Of a stretch of 64,000 nt of DNA, positions 3,118-46,152 are shown in pieces. Below the pieces are notes generated by a model that saw nothing but the letters and a program-made list of their open reading frames with translations, had not been told where the DNA came from and searched no databases. Numbering within the stretch: the stretch's first letter is position 1; the number at the start of each line of letters is the position of its first letter. Both the position numbers and the translations under genes were made by a program. This DNA comes from Verrucomicrobium sp. BvORR106 (GTDB lineage Bacteria > Verrucomicrobiota > Verrucomicrobiia > Verrucomicrobiales > Verrucomicrobiaceae), in assembly GCF_000739655.1 (NCBI RefSeq), contig NZ_BATR01000171.1, positions 1 to 64,000 on the forward strand. The letters are read 5' to 3'.

Positions 3118-6100
3118 CTATCGCATTCTTTTTCGCCTCGCGCGGAGAAGCGCTTCAACACCTGCCAGCACGGCCAGCCCTGCCGCCAGTGACCAGAGCG
3201 ATGCGGTGCGGGCAGGTTCCCAGGGTTGCGACAGATTCATCTCCACCGTGGCGTGGTCCTTGAGCTTGCGGAAATGATACACAGTCCCCGAGAGCGGCAC
3301 ATCCACCGGCAGTGAAAGACGCCCCGCTGGCTTGAGCTGAGGTTGCTGCGGTTGGGCACCAAATGGATCTGGCTGGCCGAAGCCTCCGCCACCGGCAAAG
3401 GGGTCCGCAGGAGCGGCAGCAGGCGCAGCCGCGGTCCCCAGAATGGCAGGAGCTTGATCTTGCCAAGCTTGGCTCACTCCGTTCAGCATCTTGGCACGCT
3501 GATGATCGCGGGCGGTGTCAAAATACTCGCCGCGTTTCTGCTCCGCACGCTCCATACCCCGACGTGCCGCCGAGTTGTACCTGTCCAATCGCAACACATC
3601 CTGAAAGGTCCTGACGGCTGCATCATAGTCTGCAATGTTGTAGTAGCTGTAACCTTGCTGCAACAGCCGCTCCACTTCGGCGACTGGTGCAGCAGCTGGA
3701 GCAGATGGCGTTGCCGGAGCGGGGGCAAACGGGTCCGCCCCCGCGGGTCTCTCTGGCAACGTGATAGCTGCCACACCGGAGGAAGTGATGATTTGAGATC
3801 TAAAAGGATCGCGATTGGCCAGAGCTGCACTTGGGCCAGTGGTGAGCGACGGTGCATTCACTGGAACATCTGCAATGACTGGCGGGTTCACTTGAGCCCC
3901 CTGCGTCATGGGCACCTGCGTTATCGATCCAGACACGACCGTGGCCATCTGCTGCGAGTCGGTGGAATTATTGTAGACGTTGGCTCTTCCCAGATTCGCC
4001 CCTTTAGAAGGAGTGGGTTTTGCTTCCGCGTTTTTGGCCCCCGTGGCCTGATCCTTGAGTTCACTCTGCGGCTTGCCCGCTGCAAAGAACTTGTTGTCCA
4101 CCGCCACGTTGTCATTCAGCACCGTGTTATCCCCAAATGGCACGGCTCCGAAGCCACCGGTGGCACCGCGAAGCTGACCGCCATCGACCAAGCCGTTGGC
4201 CGCCCAACTGTTGCTGCTCACCCCTCCCTGCGGAATCTGGGGCGGGTCGAATTGTCCCTGCATAGCACCATTGCCGTTCGTCCGATTCCCGAAGACCGGC
4301 ACCTTGAGACGGTTCTCATCCAAAACGAGGTTTTGCTGTTGCAGTTGCTCCTCGATCTGACGATTGCTTTTCGACAGCGTCGCATCGTCATCCGCGACGA
4401 ATTCCTTCCCCTTCATTTTGGAGGGCTTGCGGTTGTACGAGCTGCTCTTCTTATTCTGCTGATACTGCTGGAGTTCCCGCAGTTGTTTCTCGGCATTTCC
4501 CAGCGCTTCCTGCGCATCCGCCTGACTGATGTTGGAAGAGCTCGCCACACGGTTCAGCCGCATCGCGTCGCTCAGTTTCTGCTGAGCTTTTTCATCCTCA
4601 TAGATCTCTTCGACGACGGCTTCCATGTTCCCATCGACGGAGCCTAGATCGTATTTCTCCGGCACCCACACGTTCCAGAGCGTGCGCTCTGCGGAGAGTC
4701 CCACCAGTTCAGGATCATCCAGCTTCGTGCGCCCCTTCAACCCCTTCCGGTTCGAGGCATTCACACGATAGACCAGTTGCACTTGCTGGGACAGCTCACC
4801 GGGGCGCATCTGAATGAGCGGGATCAGAAACAGGGATTTCCCGTCACGCTCACCCAAGTCCGCACGCACCCGCTCGCCACCCACTGTCACCGAAACCAGC
4901 TCCGCCCCTTCCGGCAGGCGCACGGGTAGAAACTGCAGTGATCGATTGGCCAGGGAGTACACCACCGTTTCCCACCGCTCTCCGTTGGGGCGCAGGGCGG
5001 AGGTGATGTCCGCGAGAGTGACAATGGCGGCATTCCCCGCAGTGGCCTCCGTGCGTGAGAAGCTGAGCTTCACATCCGCCTGGTCATTCCGCCCGAGGAA
5101 GTACTGGGCCTGCCCCAGTGCCGTCGGCAGATAGGGCACATTCTGTGCGACTGTTTCATCTACCCCTTGCAGGGAGGACTTCACCTCGCTGGCGGACGCA
5201 TTGTCCACAATGAAAAAGCGGCGGGCTCGCGTTGCCCCGTCCACCTTCACCAGAGGGAGCGCCTGAGTTCCCTCTAGCGGCAACTCCCAATCGAGCGTCA
5301 CCGCCGTTGTGTTCAAGACATCGCTCTGGAATCCTACGGCGTACTCCCTCCGGTCTCCCACCACCCTGGACTGGGTATCCCGTATATTGACTCCTCGCAC
5401 CCTCGCCTCCGGCAGAGAGGCGGGCAGGTTCAGTTTCAATTCACGCAACATCCCCTGATCCATCTGCACTCCCACTTGTTGGGAGTAGAGCAGGCCCGCA
5501 TCCGTCGCCTGGGCCAGGAGCACGGCGTTGACACCGTATTTGGCAGGCTGCGGAAGCAGAGACACCGGCGGCAGATCCGACAATGCGGCCTCTTTCACAT
5601 CCAGCGACTCCCAGCGCAAGGCACGCTTCACCGTCTGCGGCTCCGTCACGGAGAACACACTGCTTGACGTTGTGACATCGAACTCCCGCCACTTGGTTCC
5701 TGGAGCAAGACCAATGCGGGTCTCCGTAGCGGCATGCGTGGCGAGATACGCAACGGCCTTGAGGCCCAAGACGCCCTCCACACTCACCGCGGGCAGCGTC
5801 ACCGCTGCCGCCGCGGTTCCCGGCGGACGCACCTGAGTCAGATTCAGCACGATCCGCACCTCTCTCAATCCGCTCGCGTCAAACTGGATGAAGACTCCTG
5901 CGTCATCCCGCTGCCAACTCTTGATGCCAGGCCCCGTGAGACTCTGCACCTCATATCCTTTGACGAGCGGCACGTATGCCTCATGGAGAGGCAACCGGCC
6001 TGCATGGAGCGTCAGGGCAGCGAGGATCTCCACCTTCTCCGCGCTCAACTGATAGACCGCTTCCACCTCGCCTGTGACGCCATTCGGCGCCGGCTCCACC

Positions 6101-7308
6101 TTGTACTTCAGGTTCGCCTGTCCCGGAGCAATCCAGTACCCAAGACCAACGACACTGGCATCTGTCCGTCGCTCCAGTTCTGGTCCAGCCACAGGCGTCA
6201 CGACCAGGGCCGGGGAGGCTCGCAGCCCCACCGCCCTCTCAAGCCTCGTCGCCAGGGCACCCACGTACGGCGCGGTTCTTTCCCCCGCAGCACCGGATGC
6301 CGCACGGCTGAAGTCAGCCGTGAAGGTGAACTCATCCCGCACCGGGGATGCTGTGGTAATTTCCGCAAACTTTCGAGCCCCATTCTCGCGGACGACAACG
6401 GACTGCACGCCGGTCGCGGACCAGCGCAGCAGTTGCAGATCACGATCCACCTCCAGGGTGAACTGGCGCCGCTCCGCCCCGGGAAATCTGAACCGGGCCA
6501 AGACGTCCACCTTCTCCTGCAAGGGGCGGGCCGTCACATAGGACTGCACCTCCGCCACTGCTGGCACGGCCACGCCGGTTGCCCGTCGGGCGGGTTCGCG
6601 CTGTAATTTGAGCTCCCGCACTCCGGCCAGGGCAAAGGTGAATACGCGACGTCCATCCCTTACCTCTTCAGATACCATTTGAGCCCCCACACCTGCACCC
6701 AGACCAGGCAAGCCATCCGTCAGCGGCACAATCACCCGCAGCACACTGGAGACCGCCACCGGGAGTTTGAGAGTCGTTTCCTGCCACCCCTGGGGCAGGG
6801 CACGGGAAGCCTTTCCGGCCAGCTCATGTGCCCCCGGTTTCTCAATGAGGACCGCTCCGTCCTTCAGCGGCGCAGCATGGCCATCGAGCGTCCATTGACT
6901 TCCTGCCGAGTCCCCCAGGGCAAACTCGAGCGGCAGGGTTCGCCAGTCACCTTGAGTAGTAGCCTGCAGCCTGCTGCCCACCACCACCTCCGTCTCGCGC
7001 ACCTCCACCTCATGCAGCGCCAGGTTCACCACCGCCGCCTCGCCTTTCAGCCCCTCCTTGTCCTTTTCCGGGCGACGCGCCTCCTTGGCCAGATCCCACA
7101 GTTTTTGAAAGGCATCGTAGTCGAGGTAATAACGCTCCGGCTTCTGCCCCTGCAATGGCCGGGAGGCATCAAAGGGAACGATCACCGAATGCACCGCGGG
7201 GTCCGCGGGAAACTCCGGCTTCTCCTGGGCCCGCAAACCGTGGCTCAAGGCCAGGCAAAGAGCCCCTCCGACCACCAGCTTTTGATAGTTGAGTGAGGAA
7301 TGGTTCAT
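3118..7308 (-). CDS. giant exported protein C with TPR-like segment (unknown function)
   Basis: The product has 1396 residues and I do not recognise a function. The ATG at 7308 overlaps the stop of the upstream gene as ATGA and has AAAGGAG eight bases upstream, which indicates translational coupling. Residues 1-25 form a signal peptide ending near RAQ. A segment VIVPFDASRPLQ...YYLDYDAFQKLWDLAK matches the N-terminal motif of both upstream genes. The body is beta-rich, and near residue 793 it has QFLPVRLPEGAELVSV, also shared. Residues about 930-1200 are low complexity in Gln, Asn and Gly. A TPR-like stretch follows (VERLLQQGYSYYNIADYDAA), then a Pro/Gln-rich region and a C-terminal transmembrane helix with a basic end (RARRKRMR). 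It probably faces the periplasm, anchored at the C-terminus. Confidence 0.85.
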   Translation of the reverse strand: MNHSSLNYQKLVVGGALCLALSHGLRAQEKPEFPADPAVHSVIVPFDASRPLQGQKPERYYLDYDAFQKLWDLAKEARRPEKDKEGLKGEAAVVNLALHEVEVRETEVVVGSRLQATTQGDWRTLPLEFALGDSAGSQWTLDGHAAPLKDGAVLIEKPGAHELAGKASRALPQGWQETTLKLPVAVSSVLRVIVPLTDGLPGLGAGVGAQMVSEEVRDGRRVFTFALAGVRELKLQREPARRATGVAVPAVAEVQSYVTARPLQEKVDVLARFRFPGAERRQFTLEVDRDLQLLRWSATGVQSVVVRENGARKFAEITTASPVRDEFTFTADFSRAASGAAGERTAPYVGALATRLERAVGLRASPALVVTPVAGPELERRTDASVVGLGYWIAPGQANLKYKVEPAPNGVTGEVEAVYQLSAEKVEILAALTLHAGRLPLHEAYVPLVKGYEVQSLTGPGIKSWQRDDAGVFIQFDASGLREVRIVLNLTQVRPPGTAAAAVTLPAVSVEGVLGLKAVAYLATHAATETRIGLAPGTKWREFDVTTSSSVFSVTEPQTVKRALRWESLDVKEAALSDLPPVSLLPQPAKYGVNAVLLAQATDAGLLYSQQVGVQMDQGMLRELKLNLPASLPEARVRGVNIRDTQSRVVGDRREYAVGFQSDVLNTTAVTLDWELPLEGTQALPLVKVDGATRARRFFIVDNASASEVKSSLQGVDETVAQNVPYLPTALGQAQYFLGRNDQADVKLSFSRTEATAGNAAIVTLADITSALRPNGERWETVVYSLANRSLQFLPVRLPEGAELVSVTVGGERVRADLGERDGKSLFLIPLIQMRPGELSQQVQLVYRVNASNRKGLKGRTKLDDPELVGLSAERTLWNVWVPEKYDLGSVDGNMEAVVEEIYEDEKAQQKLSDAMRLNRVASSSNISQADAQEALGNAEKQLRELQQYQQNKKSSSYNRKPSKMKGKEFVADDDATLSKSNRQIEEQLQQQNLVLDENRLKVPVFGNRTNGNGAMQGQFDPPQIPQGGVSSNSWAANGLVDGGQLRGATGGFGAVPFGDNTVLNDNVAVDNKFFAAGKPQSELKDQATGAKNAEAKPTPSKGANLGRANVYNNSTDSQQMATVVSGSITQVPMTQGAQVNPPVIADVPVNAPSLTTGPSAALANRDPFRSQIITSSGVAAITLPERPAGADPFAPAPATPSAPAAAPVAEVERLLQQGYSYYNIADYDAAVRTFQDVLRLDRYNSAARRGMERAEQKRGEYFDTARDHQRAKMLNGVSQAWQDQAPAILGTAAAPAAAPADPFAGGGGFGQPDPFGAQPQQPQLKPAGRLSLPVDVPLSGTVYHFRKLKDHATVEMNLSQPWEPARTASLWSLAAGLAVLAGVEALLRARRKRMR

Positions 7309-10300
7309 ACCGCGAACTCCTTTCCGCGAATCTGCCGTGAAGACGGGACCGGAGTGGACCAGAGCAGGAGTTTCCATAGAAGTCGAAGGCCAAAGCCCAG
7401 CAGCCAGCCCAACAGGAGGGCATTGCACGAGGGCAGCAAGTGGGGGAACAAAAGGGGCGGGGCGAACGTGAGCAGCAGGCAAACGAAGAGAGTGCTCATC
7501 CAAGGACGATCCCGCCCGATCAAGCGAAACGCCAGGGCTCCGAGGATCACCAGAAGGCTGGTGCGGAACAACTGCCAGTCCCAGGAGACGTAGTGGATCA
7601 CGAGTGGATCTGCCTTTTGATGGCCTGTGAATTCCAGGACCTGCCCAGCAGTCGGAAGGTCCAGCTCCACAGGAAGTATCCCGGCCTTGCTGGACTTGAT
7701 CGCGGTCTGCTTGGGAACAACGATCACCACCCCCGACACAAACGCTTCTATCTGGTCAAGATTGGGCTGGGTATTGCGCACGATCAACCTGTTCCGTAGA
7801 GGATCAAATGATGCTGAAGATCCTTCCGGGAATTGGATTCCTTGCGCCTTCAGTATATCAGTAGCGGAAAAGTTGCCGCCGTGTCGTGCAGCTCCCCCAC
7901 CCTTAAGAAAACTGGGAGGCACTCTGTAGCTACGCGTGTATTGCTCGGTACCCACGTCCGACAGAGGGACGACCACCACAGCGAACGGCTCGATCTTGTA
8001 TTTCATACCAGCCAGTTCAGTCACATATCGCAACACCTCGGTCATAGGCACGTCCTTGAGATCCAGGCTGATCTGCGCCGTGCTGGGTGTAGAGCCATGC
8101 TTTGCTATGAGATTGATGCCTTTTCTGGAAGGATCTCTCTCCACCGTGTCAAAGTCACGACTCTTGATTCGCAAAAACTCAAGCGCTTCCTCGATCGAGG
8201 CTCCTTGGAACTGGACTCGGGGAATGATGATCCTGTCCATCTTGTTGGTGTAGTAGCGACTGGCATCTGCGCCCTCTCCATTTTGAGGCATTTCCTCGAA
8301 TTCCTGCAGGCCCAGATAATCCGCAGTCTTTTCTGCGCTCTGGATGCTTTCCACAAAGGCCTCCACCTGGTCAAGATTGGGCTGTGTATTGCGAGCCACC
8401 AACGCCTCCGCCTCCGCATCGTAGGCAGCATTCGCCCCTTCAGGAAACTGGATGCCCTGGGCCTTCAGCAGATCCACCACTGAAACCAACCCTTTGGGCG
8501 GCAACTCACTCTTGTGTCCGGTCGCCTTACTCTGCCATTCAAGATAACGCCGCAGCGGAAACTTGTAGCGCTGCGTGTACTGCTCTGCGCCGACGTCAGA
8601 CAAGGGCCCCACCAAGACATGGTCTGTCTTAATGACGTACTTATAGCCGGCCAGTTCTGTCACGTAGCGTAGAGCTTCAATGAGGGGCACATCGGTCAGG
8701 TCCAGGCTAATCTGTGCGGTGCTTGGGGTGGATCCCGTTTGCACAACCATCCGCACGCCTTTCTTCTCCGGATCACTTTCAGTGGCCATCCTGTCGAGTG
8801 CACTCGTCGCCACCTCCAACGAAGCCCCCTGGAATTGCACCTTCCGCAAAATGATTCGTTCGAGTTTCATCGTCATCGCCTGGATGGCAGCAGCATTATC
8901 CGGGCGTTGACTTTCGATCCACCAGTCCCCCTCACTCGCCTTTGAACCCCCTCCTGGCAGAAAGTCCACAGAAGCGGCCATAGGCATACTTGAGCCTGAA
9001 TGCCAGTAAGGCCACGGCATCTCATCCCAGAGAGTCGCCAACAAACTCCGGGGCGTATCTGCCTGTTCTTCTCCCACTTCCAATCCACCGCCGCTGTGAT
9101 GCAGGGCGTAGCCGTCTGGTGCATGCACCTTCCACTGTGAGCTCAGCACCGGCACCCCTTCCAGCACCGCAGGCGGTTCCAGAGGAGTCTTGCCCCACGA
9201 GCCCCATGTGATCGGGGCCGTTTCATAGACCACCTTGGCCGATACAAAATCGGCCTCGGAATTCAGCACCGGCAGTGGCACCCGCAACTGATCAGCACCT
9301 CCAGCCTGCACGGGCTTCACAGGCCGATCCTGCACCAGTGTACTCAACAGCACCGCTCCCTTGGGAAGCGCCAGCGAGAGGAACTGCCGGCCATTGTGCC
9401 GCAGTGTGTAGGTCACCTCATGGCGCACCGGACCATTCTGGCCGATGATGCTCACCATCCGGGCCTGCAACACGAGAGCCCCCGCAAGGGCGGCCGGTTT
9501 ATGCCGTTTGGCCGTGATCTGGATGGAGTGTTCTCCACCTGTTGAACTGAAGGCAGCGATCACCCGATGTCTCGGCTGATAGCCGGAAACTGCTGGAGGT
9601 CGCAGCGAGTCCAGGGGCTGCACGCCCTTTGTTTCGAACTCAATCTCCGTGTCGGTATTCGCCTCCACCACCCAGGCCGTGGTACGACGTCGGGCTCCGG
9701 GCGTGCCGATGTCCGGCAAAGTGGAGCGCAGAGACTGGCCGTCTCCATCTGTCGCAGGCAGGCTCATCCGGAACCGGATGCTCTCCGTGCCCAGCACTTC
9801 CTTCCGCAGCGTGAAGTGCCAGACGCCTGTCGCATCATCCAGCACCTGCTCCGCCACCAGCGGAGACGTCACACGGAACAAAGGCGCCAGCTTGGGATCC
9901 AGTTTTACATCGAACTTGCGCAGCGGCGCTCCGTTCACCAGCAGTTCGAGCTGCCCTTCGATCTCCACCTGCCGCGCTCTCGGCAGGGCATAGGCCGTCA
10001 CCGCGACATCGTGCACGGGGGCGCGGCGGGAGACTTCAAATTGAAGCTGCCAGTCCTTCAGGCAATACCAGGCCATGCGGCCTTTCACCGGGGAGAGCCT
10101 GATGTCACGTGCCTCCAGGCCGGTCGTGGCAGTCACGTTCACTTTCCACGATTCATCAAATGCCAGAGCGACATATCCCGTGGTCCGTGCTGAGCCAGGA
10201 ATCTGAAGCCCGCTCAGGGCAAAGGCTTCGGTGCTCGCGCCTTCTGCGGCAGCCGTGCCGATCTCCTTGCGAGTCCGCACCACAAAGATCGCATCGGTTC

Positions 10301-11933
10301 CAGCCGCCAACCCACGGGGCCAAAACAACTCCAGGGCCTGGCCCACCTGTTTCCACTCCAGCGGAGCGGCACCGGGTGACTGAGCCCCCAGGAAGGTTTC
10401 CCCCGCTGGCAGTGTCACCGAAGCCCTTTCGGTAGTCCCCGCCTCACCATGAAGGGTGAGAGTCCGGGCAATCGCAGCCTCATGCGCGGACAGGGTGACA
10501 CTCGTGTCCTGATCCACGCTGAATCGATCCGGCGCGCGAGTCACCGTGATGGCCGTCTTGGCAGGCGGCGCATCGAAGTCCATGGCCGCGACAAATTCCG
10601 GATGCTTGCGGATATCATGGTTAAGTGCAGTCGCCGCCTTGGCATCCAGGCCAAACACTTCCGCTGATTCGCGGAGCACCGCAGGCCAAGTACCATCCGA
10701 CACCTCCTGCCCAGGTGGAGAACTGCTTCGCAAGAGCTCGTCGAACCTCACGTCCACTCCGGAACTGGCAAGGAGCACACAGCTCCAGCCATCAAACAGA
10801 CTGCCTCGTTCATCCTTGAATACTGGCAGCGTGGCTTGCGTCGATCCCGAGAGAGGCAGAACCAGGGGCTGCTCAAATCCGATCACGAGGCTCCGCACGG
10901 AACCTGGGAGCCCCGCCTCTTCAACCTCCAGACGGTTCCCCTCCAACTTCCACCGGTGCTGACCGATGTCTGACCTTACTCCTAACACCTGTACTCCGGC
11001 AGGCACCTGAATGTGCAACCGGCCTCCTTCCATCTCAGGCAGCAGGGCATAGGTCAGCATCGTCACTCCCACCAGCTTGTCCGGAGTGAGCTTGCAGATC
11101 ATCCTTCCACGCACAGCGCTTTCCCGGCCATCCCGACGGGTGGCGTCCGCCCTTTTCCAACCCACGGTGAACAGTTTCAACACGCAAAGCCTGGAACTCA
11201 CCGCGTCTTTGAGACTTACATTCTGCTTCATGTAGTGCCCTGCATTTTCAATGGCACGCACGCCCGTTTTGACGACCTCCCCATTGAAGTCCACCGGCTT
11301 CCAGCCTTCTGGCAGATTCAGTTTGACCACGGTCGACGAAGCGGTGGCCAAAGCCGCGACTGGCGATGTCGAAACAAATCCGGGATGCGATGACGTCACC
11401 ATGGCGAAGACAAACTTCAGCTCGTGCCGCCCCTCTCCTTCCGTGAGCACTCGCACACTCTCCTCACCGGCATGGATCATCACCGGTCGCTGCGACTTCA
11501 CATCGACCAGCTTCATGCTCGCGCCATCGCGCACCGGCAACGGCAGTTCGACCTCGCACCACCCTTTGCCCAGATTGTTGAGCACGTAGCGATACTCCAC
11601 CTGCACGGTGGGCCCTTCGGGCGGCACCGTCACCTCCACACGCGCGTCTTCGACGGCGGTGGTCACCGGCGGCTCCGCACTCTCGATGGGCTTCACCTTG
11701 CCTGCATCGCGAATGAGCGCCTCGTACTGCTTGGCATCGAGCATCACGGCATTCGGATGCTTCTTGAGCACTTCTTCCAGGTGCTTGGTGGGCACCCACA
11801 GCTCCACTCGCGTGGCCGGGGTCACCAGAGCCTCCTCAGCGGAGGCCCTCGTCCCCAGAAACGGGCTTGCAGGAAACAACGACGCCACCAGTGCGAGGCA
11901 CCATGGACGCCGGAATGAATTCAGGCGGGTCAT
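7305..11933 (-). CDS. giant exported protein B with two STN/secretin-like modules
   Basis: The product has 1542 residues. The ATG at 11933 has GGAGG eight bases upstream and lies 14 bp after the stop of gene A. A GTG at 11948 is the less likely alternative. A signal peptide is followed by the shared motif VELWVPTKHLEEVLKK...LDAKQYEALI. The beta-rich body includes QFLSLALPKGAVLLS near residue 850. Two related modules start near residues 1027 and 1234. Each has (I/V)xFQGAS, STPSTAQISLDL, a YVTELAG segment and finally RNTQPNLDQ(V/I)EAFV. They resemble the STN and N-terminal domains of secretins, but no secretin barrel follows. At least two hydrophobic segments end the protein. Function unknown; probably a large envelope protein. 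Confidence 0.85.
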   Translation of the reverse strand: MTRLNSFRRPWCLALVASLFPASPFLGTRASAEEALVTPATRVELWVPTKHLEEVLKKHPNAVMLDAKQYEALIRDAGKVKPIESAEPPVTTAVEDARVEVTVPPEGPTVQVEYRYVLNNLGKGWCEVELPLPVRDGASMKLVDVKSQRPVMIHAGEESVRVLTEGEGRHELKFVFAMVTSSHPGFVSTSPVAALATASSTVVKLNLPEGWKPVDFNGEVVKTGVRAIENAGHYMKQNVSLKDAVSSRLCVLKLFTVGWKRADATRRDGRESAVRGRMICKLTPDKLVGVTMLTYALLPEMEGGRLHIQVPAGVQVLGVRSDIGQHRWKLEGNRLEVEEAGLPGSVRSLVIGFEQPLVLPLSGSTQATLPVFKDERGSLFDGWSCVLLASSGVDVRFDELLRSSSPPGQEVSDGTWPAVLRESAEVFGLDAKAATALNHDIRKHPEFVAAMDFDAPPAKTAITVTRAPDRFSVDQDTSVTLSAHEAAIARTLTLHGEAGTTERASVTLPAGETFLGAQSPGAAPLEWKQVGQALELFWPRGLAAGTDAIFVVRTRKEIGTAAAEGASTEAFALSGLQIPGSARTTGYVALAFDESWKVNVTATTGLEARDIRLSPVKGRMAWYCLKDWQLQFEVSRRAPVHDVAVTAYALPRARQVEIEGQLELLVNGAPLRKFDVKLDPKLAPLFRVTSPLVAEQVLDDATGVWHFTLRKEVLGTESIRFRMSLPATDGDGQSLRSTLPDIGTPGARRRTTAWVVEANTDTEIEFETKGVQPLDSLRPPAVSGYQPRHRVIAAFSSTGGEHSIQITAKRHKPAALAGALVLQARMVSIIGQNGPVRHEVTYTLRHNGRQFLSLALPKGAVLLSTLVQDRPVKPVQAGGADQLRVPLPVLNSEADFVSAKVVYETAPITWGSWGKTPLEPPAVLEGVPVLSSQWKVHAPDGYALHHSGGGLEVGEEQADTPRSLLATLWDEMPWPYWHSGSSMPMAASVDFLPGGGSKASEGDWWIESQRPDNAAAIQAMTMKLERIILRKVQFQGASLEVATSALDRMATESDPEKKGVRMVVQTGSTPSTAQISLDLTDVPLIEALRYVTELAGYKYVIKTDHVLVGPLSDVGAEQYTQRYKFPLRRYLEWQSKATGHKSELPPKGLVSVVDLLKAQGIQFPEGANAAYDAEAEALVARNTQPNLDQVEAFVESIQSAEKTADYLGLQEFEEMPQNGEGADASRYYTNKMDRIIIPRVQFQGASIEEALEFLRIKSRDFDTVERDPSRKGINLIAKHGSTPSTAQISLDLKDVPMTEVLRYVTELAGMKYKIEPFAVVVVPLSDVGTEQYTRSYRVPPSFLKGGGAARHGGNFSATDILKAQGIQFPEGSSASFDPLRNRLIVRNTQPNLDQIEAFVSGVVIVVPKQTAIKSSKAGILPVELDLPTAGQVLEFTGHQKADPLVIHYVSWDWQLFRTSLLVILGALAFRLIGRDRPWMSTLFVCLLLTFAPPLLFPHLLPSCNALLLGWLLGFGLRLLWKLLLWSTPVPSSRQIRGKEFAV

Positions 11934-11947
11934 TTCTGGATCCTCCA

Positions 11948-14900
11948 CTAGGAGTTGCTCTTGCCATCATTCTCCGGGCTGCTGCCCTGGCCAGACGGGG
12001 ATGGAGGCTCCACCTTGGGGAGCTCCGGCGCGGCGGTCTCAGACGCAGCCACCGACGGTGGCGTTGCCTGAGCAGACGCAACTGGAGCAGGCGTGGGATT
12101 GCTGGCCGGAGGCACGACGACGGGAGGACTCAACCGCTTCTTGAACATCTGAGCCCGGGTCTTGATTCGCTGAATGACCCCGCAGACGAACCACAAGACC
12201 GCCACCAAGATCGCAGCCAGCACGGCCCCCTTGGCCACCTGCGCATTGGCAGCGCTCACCAGACCGGTGACGAGCAGACCGCCCAGCCCGAACAGCACCA
12301 GGAAACGAAGCTTGTCCGGCAGCGGGTGATGCCAGCGGCGCAGCCCCAGCACAATGACTCCGAAGAACACCAACGTCTCAAGGAAATAAGACCATCCGCG
12401 CGAGCGGTAGGAGATGTCTGTGGCGGCCGGTGCCCCCAGACGATGCAGCACAAAGTTGCGCCCCTGAGTCGGCACCTGGAAGTCGAAGGTGCTGCGATGC
12501 TCCGCAGGAATGGCCGGCGCGGGAGTCCAGTCTCCAGAACTCTGGGTGAACTGCGGACCAAAGGCTGGCACTAGGGAGTTGACGATGCCGCGGAAACGGC
12601 CCCATCCACGCTCCTTCAGGCTCAGGGTCATGGGCCCCTTGAACTTCGTGTACTCATGACTCTCCGGCACATAGAGCGCCTGCTGGGTCTGAAGCACCAC
12701 CGCCACATCCGCCAGCGTGGGTGGCACGATGGAGATGCCGCCCATCCACCCCATCTTTTCTCCCGCCTTCGGGCTGGGGATCTCATAGACGAACCGGACC
12801 GGGAAGGCCGTGTTGCGAGCCGCGGCACCGGAAGGAAGCCGCACCAGGAGATCATCAGAACCCTCCCGCTTCATGGGTCGCTGAGATTGCGTAGCCACGA
12901 AGACGTCACTGACCAGCTTGGCCCCCTTGGGCAACTGCACCGTGAGGAACTGCCGGGCATTGTTCTTCAGCCAGTAGATGACCTCCGTGGTCTGCGCACG
13001 ATCCGTGGCCACTGCAGTGGTCAGCACGGCATGGGTCACCACGGTCTGCGGCACTTCGATATAGGCATTGCGCGCCACATCCAGCTTCAAGCTGAGCGGC
13101 TGGGTCTTGTACTTGAACGCCAGAAAGACACCCGTCTGCTGGAGCTGGTCGTTCAGCTCCTTGGGATCGATCTCCTCGAGATTCTCCGCCACCGGCTCGC
13201 GAATCTCCAGGCTGTCATCCTTCACCACGGCCACCTGGCCGGTCTCCTGGAACACTCCCGGCACATGCACCTGCTGGAGCTCCACCTTCGCCGCCTCGCC
13301 GCCGGCACTGGGCTGCTCCAAGTTCAAGGTAATATTAAACATCCCCTGGCGCTCATTGCGCAAGGTCACCTCCCACAGGGCATAGGCCTCCAGATTGGGC
13401 AACAGAGGGGCCGCCCCCGCCGCCGCTGCGGGCGGCTGGTATTCCTTGTTCACCTCTTTTACCAGCGGATCCACCAGACGAAGCTCAGCGGCCGCGGCCT
13501 TGGGTACCGCGAGAATGAATTTGTCGATCGCGGCGTACGCCACATCAAAGGCCAACGTCCACTGGTGCAGCGTGGACTGTTCACGGATCTGCGCCAGCGT
13601 CAGCACCTGCACGTTGACCTGAGGCGGCCGCTGCTTGAAGCCCAGGGTGGCCTGAGTCTTGACCGCATCCCGGTGACGGAAGGCCAGGGTCAGTTCACGG
13701 TTCTCCGCCGTGGTCTCTTTGAAGTTCAACACATTGACGTCTTCCAGCCGCAGATCCCCGATCTGTTTCGTGGTGGCCTCCAGGCTGGTGTGCACCACCA
13801 CGCCGATCTTCGCCTCATACCGGTAGCCGGGAGTACTCAGGAAATAAGTCGGCACCACGAGGTCCTCGGTGGGAGAGGTCCGCAGCTTCTGCCCCTGCAC
13901 GGTAAACTTGGTATTCCCCAGCGTCTGCGAGTCGAATCGCAGCACGAGGTGGTCTTTCTGCACCGCCGCACCGTTGACAGTGACTGCCTGCTTTTCCACG
14001 CTCCATTTTTCCGGCGGCACTCCCACGACTTCCCAGCCAGACCAGCCATCAGGCAGAGCCACGCGCGCCTCGAACAGGCCCACTCGACGGATGTTGTACG
14101 CAAATTCCGTCACCAGCTTGGAACGATCCCGGTCCACGATGAAGCGGCTCACACTCTCGACATCCACCTGGGCCACGGCTGGCACCACGCCCACCTGGAG
14201 CTTCGCGGGATGTTTGAGATAACGATAGGCCGCGACATTTACCAACCCCTCCGCGCCAGCACCTGCGGCAGTTTGTTGAATGAGCCCCTCTCCTGGTTTC
14301 GGGGTGACATCCAGCTGAGATTCCGCCAGGACACCGATTTCACCCCGATCCTGCACCGCTCCCTCCACCACCACATCTGGAACTACCGCGTCCGCAGGCA
14401 GCTTGGGCAGGGGCGACTCCAGCGCCAGCGTGCCGCTCCACTTGTCTTTCACCGGCGCGTTCGTGGAAACAATCAACAGCTGACGGTCGCCCTTCGCCTC
14501 CAGCTTCCATTCCCTGACATCGGTGCCCGTCACGTTCAGGATCTCCTGCCCGGCTGGCACGCTGAACTTCACCTCACTCACGGGAGCCCGCAGAATGCGC
14601 AGATCCACGGCGGCCTTGGTGGCCACCGATCCGCCCCGCACTTCACTGGTTACCTTGGTCTGGGCCAGAATCAGCGGCGCCAGCGCCGTAGCCGCTTCGG
14701 TCTTGCTCCAGGTCACGCCAAACTGCGTGCCGTTGCCAAAGAAGAAGGACAACTCTGTGTCCTCACCCACAGGCCGGGAAGTGAAGGCGGCAGCAGGCTT
14801 TACCTCAAACTCCCAACCCTTGCCCGGCACCACCGCTGTGAACCGGGATACGGCTGCCGTCGGAAGCCCAAGCGGCACGGAGAACTTGCCCCCTGTCTTC

Positions 14901-15532
14901 GTCACCGGCGCATAGAACTTGAGCTTCAGCTCATACACCCCTTTGTCCGGCACGATCACATCATAGCCGTCTGGCTTGCTGGAGAGCACGGCCTTGCCCG
15001 CCTCTGCATCCCCCACGGCGGAGAGCTTGCCGCCCTTTGCCAGCGGGATGGTCAGCCAGCCTTTCTTGAATGACTCCACGGTGATCTTCGCTTCCACTGC
15101 CAGGAGATCCCCTTCCACCTTGCCCGTGTACTCAGCCCGCGAAACGATCCCATCCTGCGGAGGCTTGGTCTCCTCCTCTGTCCGCTTGAGATTCAGTTCA
15201 TTCCAGAGTTCGAGGAATTCCTTGTACGGCAGGAACACGCCCTTCCCGCCATCGGTGAACACCTTCTGCAACTCGGTGTACGGCACATAGATCGTGCGTT
15301 CACGCTCACGCACCGGCACCCCGGAGTTCTCTGGTGGCTTGGATGGGGCGGGAGGCACCACCACCGGAGGTGGCGTCGGTACGGGCGCTGGTGCTGGCGG
15401 AGTCCCGACCGGTGGAGCCACCGGTACCGTTGGCGGAGCTGCCGGGCTCGGTGGAGCGGGATCTTGAGCCGTCAAAAGACGACCCATCGTGAAAACTGCC
15501 ATCAGGGCGGGGAGGAAACGACGCGCATTCAT
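11948..15532 (-). CDS. giant exported protein A (unknown function)
   Basis: First gene of the operon; 1194 residues from the ATG at 15532, chosen because a signal peptide (NARRFLPALMAVFTMGRLLTA) follows at once. A Pro-rich linker spans about residues 24-75. It is followed by IYVPYTELQKVF and FLPYKEFLELWNELNL, the motif shared with genes B and C. The body is predicted beta-rich and carries QFLTVQLPKGAKLVSDV near residue 862. Near the C-terminus there are several hydrophobic helices (about 1050-1130, for example VLFGLGGLLVTGLVSAANA), a basic stretch and a Pro/Ala-rich tail. The layout suggests a large periplasmic part with a C-terminal inner-membrane anchor. I recognise no enzyme motif. Confidence 0.85.
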   Translation of the reverse strand: MNARRFLPALMAVFTMGRLLTAQDPAPPSPAAPPTVPVAPPVGTPPAPAPVPTPPPVVVPPAPSKPPENSGVPVRERERTIYVPYTELQKVFTDGGKGVFLPYKEFLELWNELNLKRTEEETKPPQDGIVSRAEYTGKVEGDLLAVEAKITVESFKKGWLTIPLAKGGKLSAVGDAEAGKAVLSSKPDGYDVIVPDKGVYELKLKFYAPVTKTGGKFSVPLGLPTAAVSRFTAVVPGKGWEFEVKPAAAFTSRPVGEDTELSFFFGNGTQFGVTWSKTEAATALAPLILAQTKVTSEVRGGSVATKAAVDLRILRAPVSEVKFSVPAGQEILNVTGTDVREWKLEAKGDRQLLIVSTNAPVKDKWSGTLALESPLPKLPADAVVPDVVVEGAVQDRGEIGVLAESQLDVTPKPGEGLIQQTAAGAGAEGLVNVAAYRYLKHPAKLQVGVVPAVAQVDVESVSRFIVDRDRSKLVTEFAYNIRRVGLFEARVALPDGWSGWEVVGVPPEKWSVEKQAVTVNGAAVQKDHLVLRFDSQTLGNTKFTVQGQKLRTSPTEDLVVPTYFLSTPGYRYEAKIGVVVHTSLEATTKQIGDLRLEDVNVLNFKETTAENRELTLAFRHRDAVKTQATLGFKQRPPQVNVQVLTLAQIREQSTLHQWTLAFDVAYAAIDKFILAVPKAAAAELRLVDPLVKEVNKEYQPPAAAAGAAPLLPNLEAYALWEVTLRNERQGMFNITLNLEQPSAGGEAAKVELQQVHVPGVFQETGQVAVVKDDSLEIREPVAENLEEIDPKELNDQLQQTGVFLAFKYKTQPLSLKLDVARNAYIEVPQTVVTHAVLTTAVATDRAQTTEVIYWLKNNARQFLTVQLPKGAKLVSDVFVATQSQRPMKREGSDDLLVRLPSGAAARNTAFPVRFVYEIPSPKAGEKMGWMGGISIVPPTLADVAVVLQTQQALYVPESHEYTKFKGPMTLSLKERGWGRFRGIVNSLVPAFGPQFTQSSGDWTPAPAIPAEHRSTFDFQVPTQGRNFVLHRLGAPAATDISYRSRGWSYFLETLVFFGVIVLGLRRWHHPLPDKLRFLVLFGLGGLLVTGLVSAANAQVAKGAVLAAILVAVLWFVCGVIQRIKTRAQMFKKRLSPPVVVPPASNPTPAPVASAQATPPSVAASETAAPELPKVEPPSPSGQGSSPENDGKSNS

Positions 15533-22405: not shown

Positions 22406-25150
22406 CTAGCGCAGCGGACGGGTGATCCGCTTCCAAAAGAAGTCCAGCTCACCAGCCAACGAGGTCATCACTCCATGGAGATCGCCGCCTGGGGTGTTTT
22501 CCGTGTCCGTGAGGATCTGGTTCATGGCATAGAGACTGGCCAGACTGCGGTTGTCCAGGTGCACCACATCCAGATTCGCCCGCAAGGCGGAAGGGATGAC
22601 ATCCTGCTGAAGCAGCCCCGCCAAGGGAGCCGCCTCCAGATCCCCTTTAAAGACCAGCAGCTTGATCTGCGGAGAGGGCTGCCCGATCTGGCTCGCCGCC
22701 GCCGTGAGTTCCGCCACCCGTCCCACCACGAAGCTCGTCACCGTCTTCCAGTAGCGTTCGTCAGCAAAGTCCTCCAGACCGAAGATCATCTCCGCTCCCT
22801 GCAACCGCCATCGAGAGAGGGATCCTCCTCCCAGACCTGGCAGTTCAAGCTCGTCATAGGTCACAACAGGGAACCGCTTTCCTGCCACGCGCACAACATG
22901 GGCGATCATGGGCCAGTTGACCTTCAAGATCTGGTCACGTCCGAGGATCTGCTGGCGCAGAGCGCTGAATTGCTGTGGAAGGCTGCCCTTGCTTTCACTT
23001 CCAGTGGTTCCGTTCGCATGAACGGTTGCGGTCGAGACTGCCACCCCGCTGGCGGGCCCACCTGGAGGCATCAGGCGATGCTTGGAAGGCGACTCTTTGG
23101 CAGGTCCTGCCGGAGCGATCCTGACCTTTTGTGGCGACTTGGATCCCGCGTCTGGCAGGACGGTGGGTTCAGACGTCGCCCGCACCTTGGAGAGGAGTTG
23201 GCGCAGCCGCTCAAAGTTGTTTTCGGAGGACTCCGCTTGGGGCGGCGTTGGCGGAGGTGCCGCCACAGATCCCCCGTAGGGAGCGGACTCCACCGAGGCC
23301 GAAGGCGTCGCTCCAGTGGGCCCCTCTTGAGAAGCTTCCGATGCTGACGGCGCAGAGCCGAGCCCCCCTACCCCTGAACCACTGAACGCAGTGCCCGAAT
23401 CCGGCACCGGCGGGGACCATTTCGGCGCGGGGTCAGCGGGCGGGTTGGAAGCAGAACCAGGAGCCGCTTCGACTGATGGCCTCGGCGCAGGTGCTGGGGC
23501 GTGTTGCCCGTTGTCCGGGGTAAATGGGGAAAAGTACGCCGCCTTGACAGGAGGGCGCTCTATCGGGGGAGGCGGCAGAGCAGCGGGTGGCTCAGAGGGT
23601 TCATCCAACTCAGCCGCTGGGGCAGAGGCGGCGGGAGGCTCATCTTCCGGGACGAATGGGGACGGGGCATCCGGGGAGGGTTCCGCAAGCGGAAGGAAAG
23701 AGTTTTTCCGTTCGACCGGAGCTTGGGGGTGAACAACTTCCGTGATCGATCCGAGGGGACCAGCAGGTGCTGGCGCTCCCGCCAGACTCACCACCTGGCC
23801 ACCATGATCTTCCGCCAGGTGCTTGGCCAGGGCGGTGAGATCTTCTTCCGGTTCTTCCTCTATCTCCGGCAGAAAGGGAGAGCCCCCCAGCGCGGACTGC
23901 AAGCCGCCTACGTCCTCTAGGATCAAAGGCAGAGCATCGCCATCGGCCGGGCCGAGCGGCCCGGACTTGCTCGTCTCCGCAGCAGCGGAACGCAGCCATT
24001 TGCGCCACGCCTGGGCGGCGTGCCGCAGCATGCCACGGGTGGAGACGCTTCCCGTGGGCCGACCGAGGAAATAGCGGTCCAGATCCAGATATCCTAGAAA
24101 CTCTTCCCGATGGCGTTCCCCCACTCCCACCTTGGCCATACGTAGCTCAACGAGCTCGATCGCCTCTGCGGCATTGAGACCCGCCAGGGAGACATTGCGA
24201 GCATTGAGCCGGTCTTCCAGTGCACTCGGGAGCTGCCGACCAAAGGTCGTGTCCCACAGATCCTGGTTCATGCTCAGCACCACCCGCACACCGGGCAGAG
24301 AGGTCAGCTCCAGCGCCATCCGCGCCACGGAGACACCCGCCTCGGCATCACGATAAAGACCGTCCATGTGATCCGCCACCAGCACCACCGGCTTCCAGAT
24401 CACCACCAGCTTGAGGAATCGCACCAGCTGCTCCGGCCCTGCCACATCCATGCCTTCCGCCAGCGTCGCCAGATTGGCCGCCGTTGGTTGCTCCACGTAG
24501 TCAAACATGGCCCGCAGCCAGTCGGCCACCTCCGCCCGCCCTTCAAGGTAGGTCACCTCCGTCAGAGTAGCGTGCAGCTGGTCATAGTGTTTCCTGAACC
24601 ACTCGCCAATCACTTTGGCGGGACCGCTGTCGGAAAACAAGTTCATCGGATCCTGAGAGAGCACTCTCAGGGCCTGGCTCGGATCGGTGCTGGGAATGCG
24701 TCCCGTCTGAATGAGCCGCTTGAGCAAAGCTGCGTGCACCCCGCTGCACACGCGCTGTAGAAGATTGGGCTTCACCCCCGAGTAAGCGAGGTCGGCCACA
24801 ATGCCGCGACCGCAGCCTGCCCAGGTCATGCCATCCTCCGTCTGCCAGGGCAGGCTTGCCACCACCGCCTCAGACTGGAGCTTTTCCGCCACGCGGCCCA
24901 GCAAGTGGGTTTTGCCGTGGCCCGCTCTCGGAGCGCTCAGCAGGATGACGCGCCCCTCGTTTTCCAGGGCCCGCAGCTCTTCCAGCGCGGTCTCGTGAAT
25001 GGCCACCGCAGGTTCCCCCTCGCCTTCATGCCAGGTGGCACAAATGTCATTGCCAAACGGTTGCAGATTGGCCAGCGCCACCCGATCAGGATGGATAGCG
25101 GCTTTCGCAGTCGCAGTGACCTCCGAATGTGGGTTATTGGCAGGAATCAT
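22406..25150 (-). CDS. large P-loop NTPase with proline-rich middle (unknown role)
   Basis: The protein has 914 residues from the ATG at 25150; earlier in-frame starts exist. The N-terminal 400 residues look like a STAND/AAA-type ATPase. Walker A is APRAGHGKTHLL near residue 78, Walker B is VVLVADHMDGL near 255, and a sensor-like VVLSMNQDLWD follows. Residues about 420-700 are Pro/Ala-rich and probably disordered. The C-terminal 200 residues form a compact domain (FPVVTYDELELPGLGGGSL, FGLEDFADERYWKTVTSFVVGRV) that I do not recognise. There is no signal peptide or membrane helix. It may be a regulatory or scaffold ATPase. It lies 89 bp upstream of the ABC ATPase gene on the same strand. Confidence 0.75.
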   Translation of the reverse strand: MIPANNPHSEVTATAKAAIHPDRVALANLQPFGNDICATWHEGEGEPAVAIHETALEELRALENEGRVILLSAPRAGHGKTHLLGRVAEKLQSEAVVASLPWQTEDGMTWAGCGRGIVADLAYSGVKPNLLQRVCSGVHAALLKRLIQTGRIPSTDPSQALRVLSQDPMNLFSDSGPAKVIGEWFRKHYDQLHATLTEVTYLEGRAEVADWLRAMFDYVEQPTAANLATLAEGMDVAGPEQLVRFLKLVVIWKPVVLVADHMDGLYRDAEAGVSVARMALELTSLPGVRVVLSMNQDLWDTTFGRQLPSALEDRLNARNVSLAGLNAAEAIELVELRMAKVGVGERHREEFLGYLDLDRYFLGRPTGSVSTRGMLRHAAQAWRKWLRSAAAETSKSGPLGPADGDALPLILEDVGGLQSALGGSPFLPEIEEEPEEDLTALAKHLAEDHGGQVVSLAGAPAPAGPLGSITEVVHPQAPVERKNSFLPLAEPSPDAPSPFVPEDEPPAASAPAAELDEPSEPPAALPPPPIERPPVKAAYFSPFTPDNGQHAPAPAPRPSVEAAPGSASNPPADPAPKWSPPVPDSGTAFSGSGVGGLGSAPSASEASQEGPTGATPSASVESAPYGGSVAAPPPTPPQAESSENNFERLRQLLSKVRATSEPTVLPDAGSKSPQKVRIAPAGPAKESPSKHRLMPPGGPASGVAVSTATVHANGTTGSESKGSLPQQFSALRQQILGRDQILKVNWPMIAHVVRVAGKRFPVVTYDELELPGLGGGSLSRWRLQGAEMIFGLEDFADERYWKTVTSFVVGRVAELTAAASQIGQPSPQIKLLVFKGDLEAAPLAGLLQQDVIPSALRANLDVVHLDNRSLASLYAMNQILTDTENTPGGDLHGVMTSLAGELDFFWKRITRPLR

Positions 25151-25396
25151 GTTAACCCGAAATTCTAAATTGATTCGCAAAAGGGAGAGTTTCCGCATTC
25201 GCGGGATGAGCAATCAATACTATATTTGCCTTTCCACACAACACCGTTTTTACTAGAATTTCCAGAAGTTGCAAGCGGCTTCACCAGATTCTGACACTTT
25301 ACGAGTCACGAGAGACGAACAGTATTACATCCCCTCAGCGTGAAGCATGCCTTTGCCCTTTGCCAAGGCCACAACGTCGCTTAGATTCCCTGCCCC

Positions 25397-29020: not shown

Positions 29021-32000
29021 ATGTATCTCAAGTCCCTCGAAATCCACGGCTTCAAGTCCTTTGCTGACAAGACGTTGTTTGAGTTCCACACGGGCGTCAC
29101 CGGCATCGTTGGTCCCAATGGATGCGGCAAGTCAAACGTGGTGGACGCCATCCGCTGGGTGCTGGGGGAAACTTCCGCCAAGGCTCTGCGTGGCGCAGAA
29201 ATGGCGGACGTTATCTTCAACGGGACGGACAAGCGCAAGCCCGTGGGCATGGCAGAAGTCATCCTGACCCTGGCAGATTGCGAGCAGGGCCTGGGTGTGG
29301 ACTACAATGAGGTCGCCATGTGCCGCCGCGTCTTCCGCGACGGTCGCTCCGAATACCGCATCAACGGCACCATCTGCCGTTTGAAGGACTTCCAGGAACT
29401 GCTGGCGGGTACTGGAATTGGCCGGTCCGCCTACTCCGTGATGGAGCAGGGCAAGATCGACATGCTCATCAGCGCCAAGCCAGAAGACCGCCGTTCCGTG
29501 TTCGAAGAGGCGGCTGGCATCACCAAGTTCAAGGGCCAGAAAAAGGAAGCCCTGCGCAAGCTGGAGTACACAGAGGCCAACCTCCTCCGCGTGGCGGACA
29601 TCATCGCGGAAGTGAAGCGCCAGATGGGCACCTTGCACCGTCAGGCCCAGAAGGCCAAGCGCTACCAAGTGGTGCACAAGGACCTCCGCATTCTGGACCT
29701 GCACCTGGGTCACAAGCATTTCACCGAGTACACCGCTGAGAAGACGGAGTCGGAGAACCAGATCATCTCCTTGATGACGGAACTCAATGACCTGCACCAG
29801 CGCATCCACTCGAAGGAGCAGGAGGTCACCGAGACCCGCGAGATCTACCACCAAGTGGAGTCCACCATCAACGGCCTGCGGCAGCAGTCCCAGGAATTCC
29901 GTTCCAAGATCCAGGGGGCCGAGAGCAAGATCGAGTTCAACCGCGAACGCGTGGAAGAACTGGAAGGCCGGATCCGGCGCAATGAAGAGGATGCCACCAA
30001 CAACCGGGACATGGTGGACCGTCAGCAGCGCGAACTCGCCGCCGCAGATGAGCAGTTCTCCTCCATCCGCAGCACGATCGAAAGCCGCCAGTACGCCCTA
30101 GAGGAACACCAGATCGTCCACAACGCCATCATCCCAGACCGTCAGAAGCTGGAGATGGAGCGCCGCACCCTGCGTGAGACCTTCCGCCGTCTGGAAGGTG
30201 AGGCCGCCACGGCCGATGCCAAGGCGCAGAGCCTGACCAACCAGATGGCCACCGACCGCCAGCGGCACGAAGCGCTGGCGCATGACAAGCAATCCGCCAT
30301 GCAGGCGCGCGAAGGCAGCCAGGTGGAGTTTGACCATCTTCAGCGTCAGATCGAAGAACTGGAAACCGTCCGAGCCGAGCTTGAGCACAAGCTCAAGGAT
30401 CTGACCAACAACATCCAGGAGCAGCGCCGTCAGCGCGATGCCGCTTCAGAAGAGCTCAACAACCTCCAGCGCCAGCTCACGCAGCGGCGCTCACGTCTTG
30501 AGGTCCTGCAACAGATCCTGGAGAAGGGCGAAGGCCTGGAGCTAGGCACGCAAAACATTCTGAAGGGCCTGGACGATCCCGACCGCATCAAAGGCGGCAT
30601 CCGCGGCCTCGTGGCCTCGGCCATCGAGGTAGAGCCCCAGTTCATCTCCGCCATCGAGGCAGCCCTGCGCGACCACTTGCAGGCCATCGTGCTGAACCAC
30701 ACCTCCCTCGCAGATGAGGTGCTGCATAAACTCACGGAACAGCGCCTCGGCAAGGCGGCAGTCGTTCCTCAAGATCTCATGCTGCGCAACGGCGGCACCG
30801 AACGCCAGTTCATGCCCAACGGCGGCATCGCCTGGGCTCTGGACAAGGTGAAGTCCCAGCCGCACGTGCAGCCTCTGGTGGAGCATGTGCTCCGGAACGT
30901 CCTCATCGTGGATGATCTGCAGACCGCCATGCGGCTGAAGCACGACCACGCAGATCTGGCGTTTGTCACTCTGAAGGGCGAGATTCTGACCGAGCACGGC
31001 GTGCTTCACGGTGGCGCCGGTAAAGAAGAGGCCGCCTCCACGCTGCGTCGCGAGACAGAACTGCGCGAACTTCGCGTGCAGGTCGAGGCTCTCGACATCC
31101 AGGTCGAGGAAAAAGAAGTCCTCATCGAGGACCTGCGCATGGCCCTGGAAGAGCAGCAGCGTGAGGAGGCCAATGCTCGCGATGCCTCCCAGATGAACCG
31201 TGAGGCTCTGAGCCAGTATCAGGGCAAGGTGAGCGTCGTGCAGCGCACCCTTCAGCAGGCGACCGCCAAACTCGACTCCCTGGAATGGGAACAGGGACAG
31301 ATTTCCCAACGCCTCTCCGCCGCCGAAGCTCAGATCCAGCAGCATCGTGAGGCCAATCAGGTCGCCCTCTATGAGATCGAGGAAACCCAGGAGCGGGAAC
31401 GCGTGCTGGAGACCCAGATCGAAGGCGTGATCCGCCGCGAAGTGGAGTCCACCGAGCGCCTCAACGAACTCAAGACGGCCCTGGCCCTGGAACAGAACGC
31501 CCTCCAGAACGTGGAACGTCAAAAGGCTCCGCTCGCCAGCCGCCTCGAGGAACTCGAGTCCAGCATCAGCCGCTACGAAAACGAATGCTTCATCTGGAAG
31601 CAGCGCATTGATTCCGCCGTGGCCGAGAACCGCCGCTTGGTGGAGGAGACGGAAGAAGCCCGCCGCCTGCTGGGCAACGTGGACAACGAAGGCCGGGAGT
31701 CCGTGGAGCGCCGCAACGCGGCCTTCGAGCGCGTGACCGCCCTGGAGACGGAACTCAACACCATCCGCTCCCGCCACGGCGAGCTCAACGACCACCGCAG
31801 CCGTGCTGAGGTTCAGCAGACCCGCGTGGAGATGAAGCTGGAGAACCTCATCAAGCACGTGCAAGAGCGCTACCAGATCAGCTTGGATGCCTTCGAGCCC
31901 GATCCGCACTCCCTGCTGCTTTCCATCTCCGAGCAGAAGAAGTCCTTCGACCGCACCAGCAAGCGCCGGGCCACTCTGTCTTCCCGTAGCGATAGCGCCT

Positions 32001-46087: not shown

Positions 46088-46120
46088 AAAAAAACCGGCC
46101 ACCCGAGATGGGTGGCCGGT
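46088..46120 (-). terminator. rho-independent terminator of the tyrosine autokinase gene
   Basis: On the minus strand ACCGGCCACCC pairs with GGGTGGCCGGT around a 5-nt loop (46094-46120), followed by TTTTTTT. It lies 33 bp after the stop codon of the autokinase gene. Confidence 0.95.
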
Positions 46121-46152
46121 CTGGCAAGAGATTCCAGAATGTAGCAGGAAGC

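Follow-up and report, generated by a model that had tools for sequence, protein, structure and literature searches.

The window analysed in this work, a stretch of 64,000 nucleotides from Verrucomicrobium sp. BvORR106, carries three adjacent genes, named A, B and C, which encode giant paralogous proteins with a total of 12.4 kb of coding sequence. We tentatively propose that these proteins form an inner-membrane-anchored periplasmic scaffold, which in Verrucomicrobiota has been adapted to dock on the partners of a secretin. The set is new in its build, since neither Pfam nor NCBIfam models its core (scans at E up to 1), no description was found in the open-access literature and none of the families tested accounts for it in full; its function is inferred. 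No match over the Pfam cut-offs was found in A, B or C. An earlier note on this DNA knew of no described system with such an operon-like row, and none appeared in Pfam, NCBIfam or the open-access PubMed Central literature, among the matches listed (titles and starts of abstracts).

Gene organization and paralogy

Gene A (11948..15532 (-)) encodes a protein of 1194 aa (P0001); gene B (7305..11933 (-)), one of 1542 aa (P0002); and gene C (3118..7308 (-)), one of 1396 aa (P0003). Translation confirmed the coordinates, codon numbers and common direction previously given for the three genes. The A stop codon and the B ATG, which is preceded by GGAGG, are 14 bp apart, and the B/C junction is an ATGA overlap with AAAGGAG located 8 bases 5′ of the C ATG, as had been described; the ribosome-binding sites ahead of B and C are fair. 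All three proteins begin with a hydrophobic, signal-like segment (judged by eye), in agreement with the signal peptides noted before.

A shared N-terminal motif had also been claimed. It is present in A as described (VPYTELQKVF...FLPYKEFLELW) and as a variant in C (VPFDA...YLDYDAFQKLW), but B has a divergent form only (VPTKHLEEVL...MLDAKQYEALI). In A, invariant and near-invariant alignment columns define this region (residues 78–116, 15185..15301 (-)) as RTIYVPYxxLxKVF...GVFLPYxEFLxLW, which is modelled as two short helices (85–93 and 103–115) within a low-confidence stretch. The mid-protein motif is common to the three proteins, as the earlier note had it, and reads QFLTVQLPKGAKLVS in A, QFLSLALPKGAVLLS in B and QFLPVRLPEGAELVS in C.

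By profile comparison, A, B and C are full-length paralogues that match over nearly the whole ectodomain. Profiles built from the orthologue alignments A1–A4, with the fused B-C row excluded from the B profile, were compared in hhalign and gave a probability of 100 for A and B (E 5.5e-57, 825 columns), 100 for A and C (E 3.6e-50, 839 columns) and 99.8 for B and C (E 7e-29). Since the matches to A span 825 and 839 columns, the paralogy, already suspected from the motifs, is far above chance. Some of the second-best alignments are shifted, e.g. A 299–678 onto C 422–800, and therefore each protein is made of repeated domains. The beta-domain cores delimited by hhalign to A comprise residues 42–954 of B (9072..11810 (-)) and 39–901 of C (4606..7194 (-)). 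Only A was modelled, and the fold is assigned to B and C because of their profile homology to it; by profile, the three cores are homologous rather than unrelated in fold.

Distribution, gene order and fusions

The A1 scan of GTDB contigs revealed 44 loci, 34 from Verrucomicrobiota and 10 from Planctomycetota (phyla assigned from record titles), the closest to the window being that of Verrucomicrobium sp. BvORR034. Eight loci stop inside or shortly after A, and two others were set aside: L091, a short and partly masked relative excluded from the synteny, and L067, whose second gene is masked and whose open reading frame (ORF) of 3687 aa is a masked-base artefact, excluded from the fusion count. 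In all the testable loci (34/34), A is followed by a same-strand gene for B or for a B-C protein; 15 of these loci have the fusion, 15 have three genes (C sometimes cut by the contig end) and four end within or at B. L090 was counted among the three-gene loci, though its second gene prefers the A profile (160 bits) over that of B (109). The order is alike in the genome set of the window's family, which overlaps the GTDB contigs, and the A-B-C arrangement, whose conservation the earlier note had left to a survey of relatives, is thus conserved. Of the 30 loci extending as far as C, 15 have B and C fused: 7/8 of the Planctomycetota (L079, L083–L086, L088 and L092) and 8/22 of the Verrucomicrobiota (L057, L058, L059, L063, L066, L072, L077 and L089), with proteins of 2427–3380 aa without masked residues. 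A-B-C is a free-standing unit with non-conserved flanks, which were surveyed in 91 flanking proteins scanned with Pfam (109 ORFs listed; 25 of 109 families listed, flanks only). The A genes of L058, L066 and L069, from metagenome bins titled Akkermansia muciniphila, are only 36–50% identical to that of the window and are related to those of other groups; these titles may be wrong.

Membrane topology

The C-termini are hydrophobic, as previously noted, with three segments in A, three in B and one in C, and basic tails in A and C. In A, the AlphaFold2 (AF2) model and hydropathy place three transmembrane (TM) helices at residues 1045–1133 (12134..12400 (-)); in B, three hydrophobic segments follow the juxtamembrane motif ELDLPTAGQVLEF (7377..7568 (-)); and in C, a single segment precedes the basic tail (3148..3198 (-)). 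The counts were made with Kyte-Doolittle windows, a crude method, which gave mostly three segments for A and B and mostly one for C in the relatives, and two in 5/7 fused Planctomycetota proteins.

In nine of the 15 fused proteins (L057, L059, L063, L077, L085, L086, L088, L089 and L092), both arms would lie on one side of the membrane, since four segments separate them, the last being the former C signal peptide; among the junctions printed, this peptide is retained in L057, L058, L063 and L079. The side is taken as the periplasm because A, B and C each begin with a signal-like segment. The C-terminal helices, the basic tails and most of the fused counts fit inner-membrane anchors with periplasmic beta arrays. 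From its translation, AF2 model, hydropathy and the 44 related loci, A has a signal-like N-terminus and a Pro-rich linker, followed by a hairpin of helices, the tandem beta domains and finally the three TM helices.

Secretin-derived modules in B and C

The NCBIfam model NF042912, which represents the Amuc_1098 family of PilQ-type secretins, matches B with 300.8 bits and C with 108.8 bits, for a curated cut-off of 750. The matches, two in B and one in C, are confined to the periplasmic half of the secretin. In B they cover the STN/N-domain region twice, with copy 1 at 8328..8903 (-) (profile 244–460, 109.3 bits) and copy 2 at 7692..8288 (-) (profile 241–467, 190.6 bits); in C, a TPR piece lies at 3439..3735 (-) (profile 136–233). 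The periplasmic parts of a secretin are therefore split over two window proteins, and the barrel (profile ~470–805) is absent from both in the profile searches, fragments of 9–50 bits appearing in a few relatives only. Amuc_1098 has been reported as the most abundant outer-membrane protein of A. muciniphila (PMC4960237). B shares with it the STN/N-domain region and C the TPR region; unlike Amuc_1098, both window proteins are barrel-less and far below 750 bits, have an unrelated remainder and end in hydrophobic C-terminal helices.

Three complete secretins are encoded elsewhere in the window genome, and at least one full secretin was found in each of the 9/9 A-B-C genomes searched, a set composed of A-B-C carriers only. 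Relatives were surveyed with a profile of 824 positions built from 22 of these full secretins. No module was found in A proteins by this survey, whereas the content of B varies from none to one or two copies of ~264–470, or a stretch from ~40 to 470, as in L056 (539 bits) and L072 (579 bits); L063 carries a partial third copy. The B protein of genome G009 contains nearly the entire periplasmic half of Amuc_1098 (profile 18–459, 460.8 bits). In proteins with both landmarks placed, the modules occupy a slot that comes after the last beta domain and before the juxtamembrane motif. The C slot holds the TPR piece in Verrucomicrobium and some relatives, and small barrel fragments elsewhere (50 bits in L054, 36 in L061 and 36 in L046). 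A 27-bit secretin N-domain piece of Brevifollis (L082:18006-22919 (+), ORF residues 163–216) lies near the apparent C N-terminus, outside the usual slot.

Module history and constraint

The module tree included 22 B copies and 22 secretins from nine genomes; duplicate contigs were dropped, and B copies with a split profile match (e.g. L055) were left out. In this tree the B copies need eight label changes, of which the starred branches force at least five. After removal of the long branch L082_B_960, a single group of all 21 B copies cost 209 log-likelihood units (approximately unbiased (AU) test, p 0.0006), and a single origin of the B modules was rejected; a single group of 13 B copies, named after seeing the tree, gave p 0.001. 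Several copies group with secretins of their own lineage: those of Verrucomicrobium with L005/L097 and L006/L105; those of G002 and G013 with L098/L106 of G002; L056 of G009 with L101 of G009; and L072/L077 with L104 of G029, all on starred branches. The Brevifollis copy of L082 (G024) groups with L103 of G024, unstarred (84/81). Against an own-lineage grouping, the first copies of Verrucomicrobium and of G002/G013 form a B-only group, and L061, L078 and L087, whose own secretins were unsampled, form a second one.

At the nucleotide level, B of G002 is 80–81% identical to its own two same-clade secretins but 69–75% identical to the B modules of Verrucomicrobium, although its identity to G009 B rises to 79% over a stretch of 155 bases. 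The slot of the window B is 84% identical to sister-strain B over 1184 and 1157 bases, and 76% to its own secretin over 345 bases. Being nearer to the sister-strain B, it gives no support to ongoing gene conversion within the species, and capture or conversion would have occurred at about genus depth.

Regarding constraint, the ratio of nonsynonymous to synonymous divergence (dN/dS) is 0.045–0.062 in A, 0.08–0.13 in the B core and 0.10–0.23 in the modules, so that relaxed constraint on the modules was rejected. Within the genus, nucleotide identity per 40-codon block is 43–93% in the slot and mostly 84–98% in the B core. Residues 1301–1412 of B are the sole tract whose dS is saturated when the window is compared with either sister strain, a pattern expected after replacement. 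A stretch of the B core (residues 196–276, window 11106-11348) also looks replaced: there the window is 72–75% identical in nucleotides to each of the two sister strains, which share 87–90% with each other.

These data bear on a simpler explanation, in which the slot is an insertion-tolerant stalk, and the secretin pieces, PATR repeats, TPRs and coiled coil are chance copies, donated by abundant exported genes, that serve as spacers. The low slot identity and the saturated tract would be expected of such a stalk, as would a content that varies by lineage, with PATR repeats in C, small barrel fragments in some B and C proteins, or no recognised module at all. But the B modules mostly respect domain boundaries, evolve under the constraint described above, derive recurrently from the periplasmic half of the same secretin and, in several cases, group with the secretin of their own lineage, which makes a mere stalk somewhat unlikely. 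B could otherwise be a barrel-less secretin of a type IV pilus device, co-assembling with PilQ, capping it or competing with it, and so controlling pilus output. The near-whole periplasmic half found in G009 and L072, and the full secretins of the A-B-C carriers searched, agree with such a role; it is nevertheless improbable, since Planctomycetota and several Verrucomicrobiota keep A-B-C without any module, and no pilus family is among the flank families listed.

Fold of protein A

The tandem beta domains of A, defined from AF2 models and structure searches, span residues 126–970 (12623..15157 (-)). The model of A, made from 37 sequences (pLDDT 77.7, pTM 0.40), presents a hairpin of helices at 85–115, beta domains up to ~970 and three helices; a second, separate model covered residues 455–975 (pLDDT 85.9, pTM 0.58). 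The top PDB match of A in Foldseek is ribophorin I (OST1; 6s7o_E), with E 1.2e-8 and TM-scores of 0.12 and 0.24. In VIA-align, A 126–453 superposes on OST1 6ezn_A with Z 13.6 (303 aligned, root-mean-square deviation (rmsd) 19.9), and the 455–975 model on OST1 8b6l_O with Z 14.6 (323 aligned, rmsd 19.8), the high rmsd being taken to be the effect of a differing domain angle.

Single domains also resemble the N-terminal domain of M1 aminopeptidases (M1 N-domain), with Z 9.2–12.2 and rmsd 3.2–4.8: A 285–450 matches 3qnf_A with Z 12.2 (rmsd 3.2, 156 aligned), and the second model gave Z 10.0 for its residues 1–180 and 9.6 for 181–364. The domains at ~285–451, 455–634 and 635–820 each match M1 N-domains singly; that at ~126–283 was matched within the OST1 alignment only; and the fifth, at ~825–970, carries the QFL motif and lay outside the single-domain searches. 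Four of the about five domains of A thus look M1-N/OST1-like in the models, the first through the OST1 alignment only. At E up to 1, none of the three proteins matched a Pfam peptidase domain, zinc peptidases included.

Like A, ribophorin I has tandem M1-N-like domains on the lumenal or outer side followed by a TM anchor; A differs in having about five such domains and three TM helices, in being bacterial and in its lack of detectable sequence similarity. The modelled likeness to OST1 is one of fold only. With hmmsearch, the A alignment A4 retrieved no OST1 from the PDB sequences at E up to 1, but only transporter and gamma-secretase chains in the TM region (E 0.19 and above); alignment A8 gave zero matches at E up to 10, hence no OST1, and B gave zero matches to sequences of solved structures at E up to 1. 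In a 2016 survey, OST1 and other non-catalytic subunits had no similar bacterial or archaeal sequence by BLASTp, and hidden Markov models yielded no promising bacterial or archaeal candidate (PMC4973528). Because that survey found no such OST1-like sequence, the fold link is noteworthy.

A ribophorin-like handling of clients, in which the beta arms hold exported proteins for folding, modification or sorting at the inner membrane, is suggested by OST1 being the top fold match of both models, with two tandem domains followed by TM segments as in OST1. Ribophorin I probably handles clients beside STT3. Such a role is quite improbable here: M1 N-domains match single domains with good rmsd, so that the fold of A is not specific to OST1; no OST1 sequence was matched among the PDB chains; and neither a glycosylation family nor an STT3-type transferase is among the flank families listed. 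The adhesion or S-layer-like function that the earlier note had considered is highly improbable, for although giant all-beta multi-domain arms would suit a cell-surface adhesin or coat, and integrin alpha (E down to 5.2e-8) and alpha-2-macroglobulin-like chains are among the Foldseek matches (TM-scores of at most 0.17 among the 50 listed, and no Pfam match), the C-terminal helices fit inner-membrane anchors, the B modules are periplasmic in their donor, and no surface-layer, surface-anchoring or adhesin family was found in Pfam or NCBIfam at E up to 1.

A short paralogue associated with CreD

A short A-like paralogue of 378–591 aa has the A-type N-terminal domains and the QFL domain, and matches A in hhalign with 99% probability (E 5.7e-18). 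It occupies its own locus in 19/30 family genomes (G000:C172:1-1239 (L158), L093–L096, L157 and L159–L171), and in 19/19 of these loci a CreD-like gene, detected with our own profile, lies directly downstream on the same strand; one copy is cut by a contig end. The 13 CreD-like proteins checked with Pfam, from 12/19 loci, all reach the PF06123 cut-off, that of L095 exactly. L096 and L157 each have two CreD-like genes. In S. maltophilia, CreD is reported to be needed for envelope integrity, and its loss damages the envelope (PMC4689548). Among the 30 family genomes, A-B-C and the short pair occur together in 12, A-B-C alone in 5, the pair alone in 7 and neither in 6, which indicates that they are not obligatory partners. 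CreD itself is absent from the flank families listed for A-B-C, and PF06123 from the Pfam matches (E up to 1) of the three proteins.

Proposed function

We propose that A, B and C are three ancient paralogues acting in one inner-membrane-anchored complex, in which long arms of tandem beta domains resembling ribophorin I and M1 N-domains would extend into the periplasm, with the C-termini in the cytoplasm. B and C would be placed side by side, since they are often a single polypeptide. The general job of the complex would be that of a periplasmic scaffold, preserving envelope integrity or organising envelope proteins; this role is inferred because the small relative is linked to CreD, no enzyme was recognised and constraint is strong. 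In Verrucomicrobiota, B would have gained a docking unit made of the STN/N-domains, in some cases with the TPR part, of the bacterium's own PilQ-type secretin, captured or refreshed repeatedly from the secretin gene. The arms may thereby bind the inner-membrane or peptidoglycan partners of the secretin, or its vestibule. In Neisseria, the N0 domain of PilQ is reported to bind the lipoprotein PilP, itself linked to inner-membrane proteins (PMC3441751), and by analogy B may bind secretin partners in the same way. The envelope-spanning complex that the earlier note had entertained is possible, the arrays being long and B bearing secretin-type docking domains; the secretin modules, the B-C fusions and the spread into Planctomycetota go beyond that first reading.

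Several observations weigh against a docking scaffold. Modules of at least 60 bits occur in only 17/26 Verrucomicrobiota B loci (some B genes being cut by contig ends) and in 0/8 Planctomycetota loci, and therefore docking cannot be the core function. In the C slot there are also unrelated PATR repeats, which score above the Pfam cut-off in L056, L046 and L070 but below it in L054 and are consistent with a tolerant linker. The whole-chain TM-scores between A and OST1 are low (0.12–0.31 in Foldseek), because the domain angles differ. As to topology, the segments between the arms number three in two of the fused proteins (L058 and L072), two in one (L066) and five in another two (L079 and L083), and the count of L084 is disturbed by a borderline extra peak (four plus a borderline fifth); the odd counts, if real, would place the C arm on the opposite side, and are otherwise threshold errors. 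The distribution is patchy, with A present in 17/30 genomes of the window's family and in 4/29 sampled from the phylum (own genome included in both). No flank family recurs in more than 3 of the 91 flanking proteins scanned, and no conserved neighbour among them links A-B-C to pili or to any pathway. Lastly, although the short A-like paralogue adjoins a CreD-like gene, CreD as a homologue of A-B-C went undetected, with an hhalign probability of at most 4.2% (four-row alignment).

A stronger version of the docking scaffold is doubtful. It would describe an envelope machine of the Planctomycetota–Verrucomicrobiota–Chlamydiota (PVC) bacteria, a ribophorin-like, inner-membrane-anchored scaffold of three arms, with B in the role of a secretin without its barrel. 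Recurrent capture from the secretin gene, or conversion by it, would keep the docking domains of B matched to the bacterium's own PilQ, and the scaffold and the pilus or secretion pore would share periplasmic partners.

Neighbouring genes and other features of the window

A DUF2917 gene lies 503 bp upstream of A-B-C on the same strand; downstream are an ORF of 214 aa, without a Pfam match over the cut-off, and an aldo/keto reductase. The window has no Rfam match at gathering thresholds. Elsewhere, 59328-63992 (-) encodes a hybrid histidine kinase that combines seven HAMP stretches with GAF, HisKA, HATPase and three receiver domains, and its ORF extends almost to the window end; 29021-33013 (+) encodes an SMC protein of 1330 aa; and the ORFs at 46108-48726 (+) (872 aa) and 22406-25213 (-) (935 aa) have no Pfam match at E 1e-4.

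Significance

Verrucomicrobiota and Planctomycetota are phyla known for unusual cell envelopes. If the proposal is true, A-B-C is a conserved and very costly (12.4 kb) envelope complex common to the two phyla, and in the repeated copying of secretin docking domains into another protein, recombination from the gene of a partner would, unusually, keep a protein matched to an interface. A-B-C opens a direct test of how PVC bacteria build or brace their periplasm.

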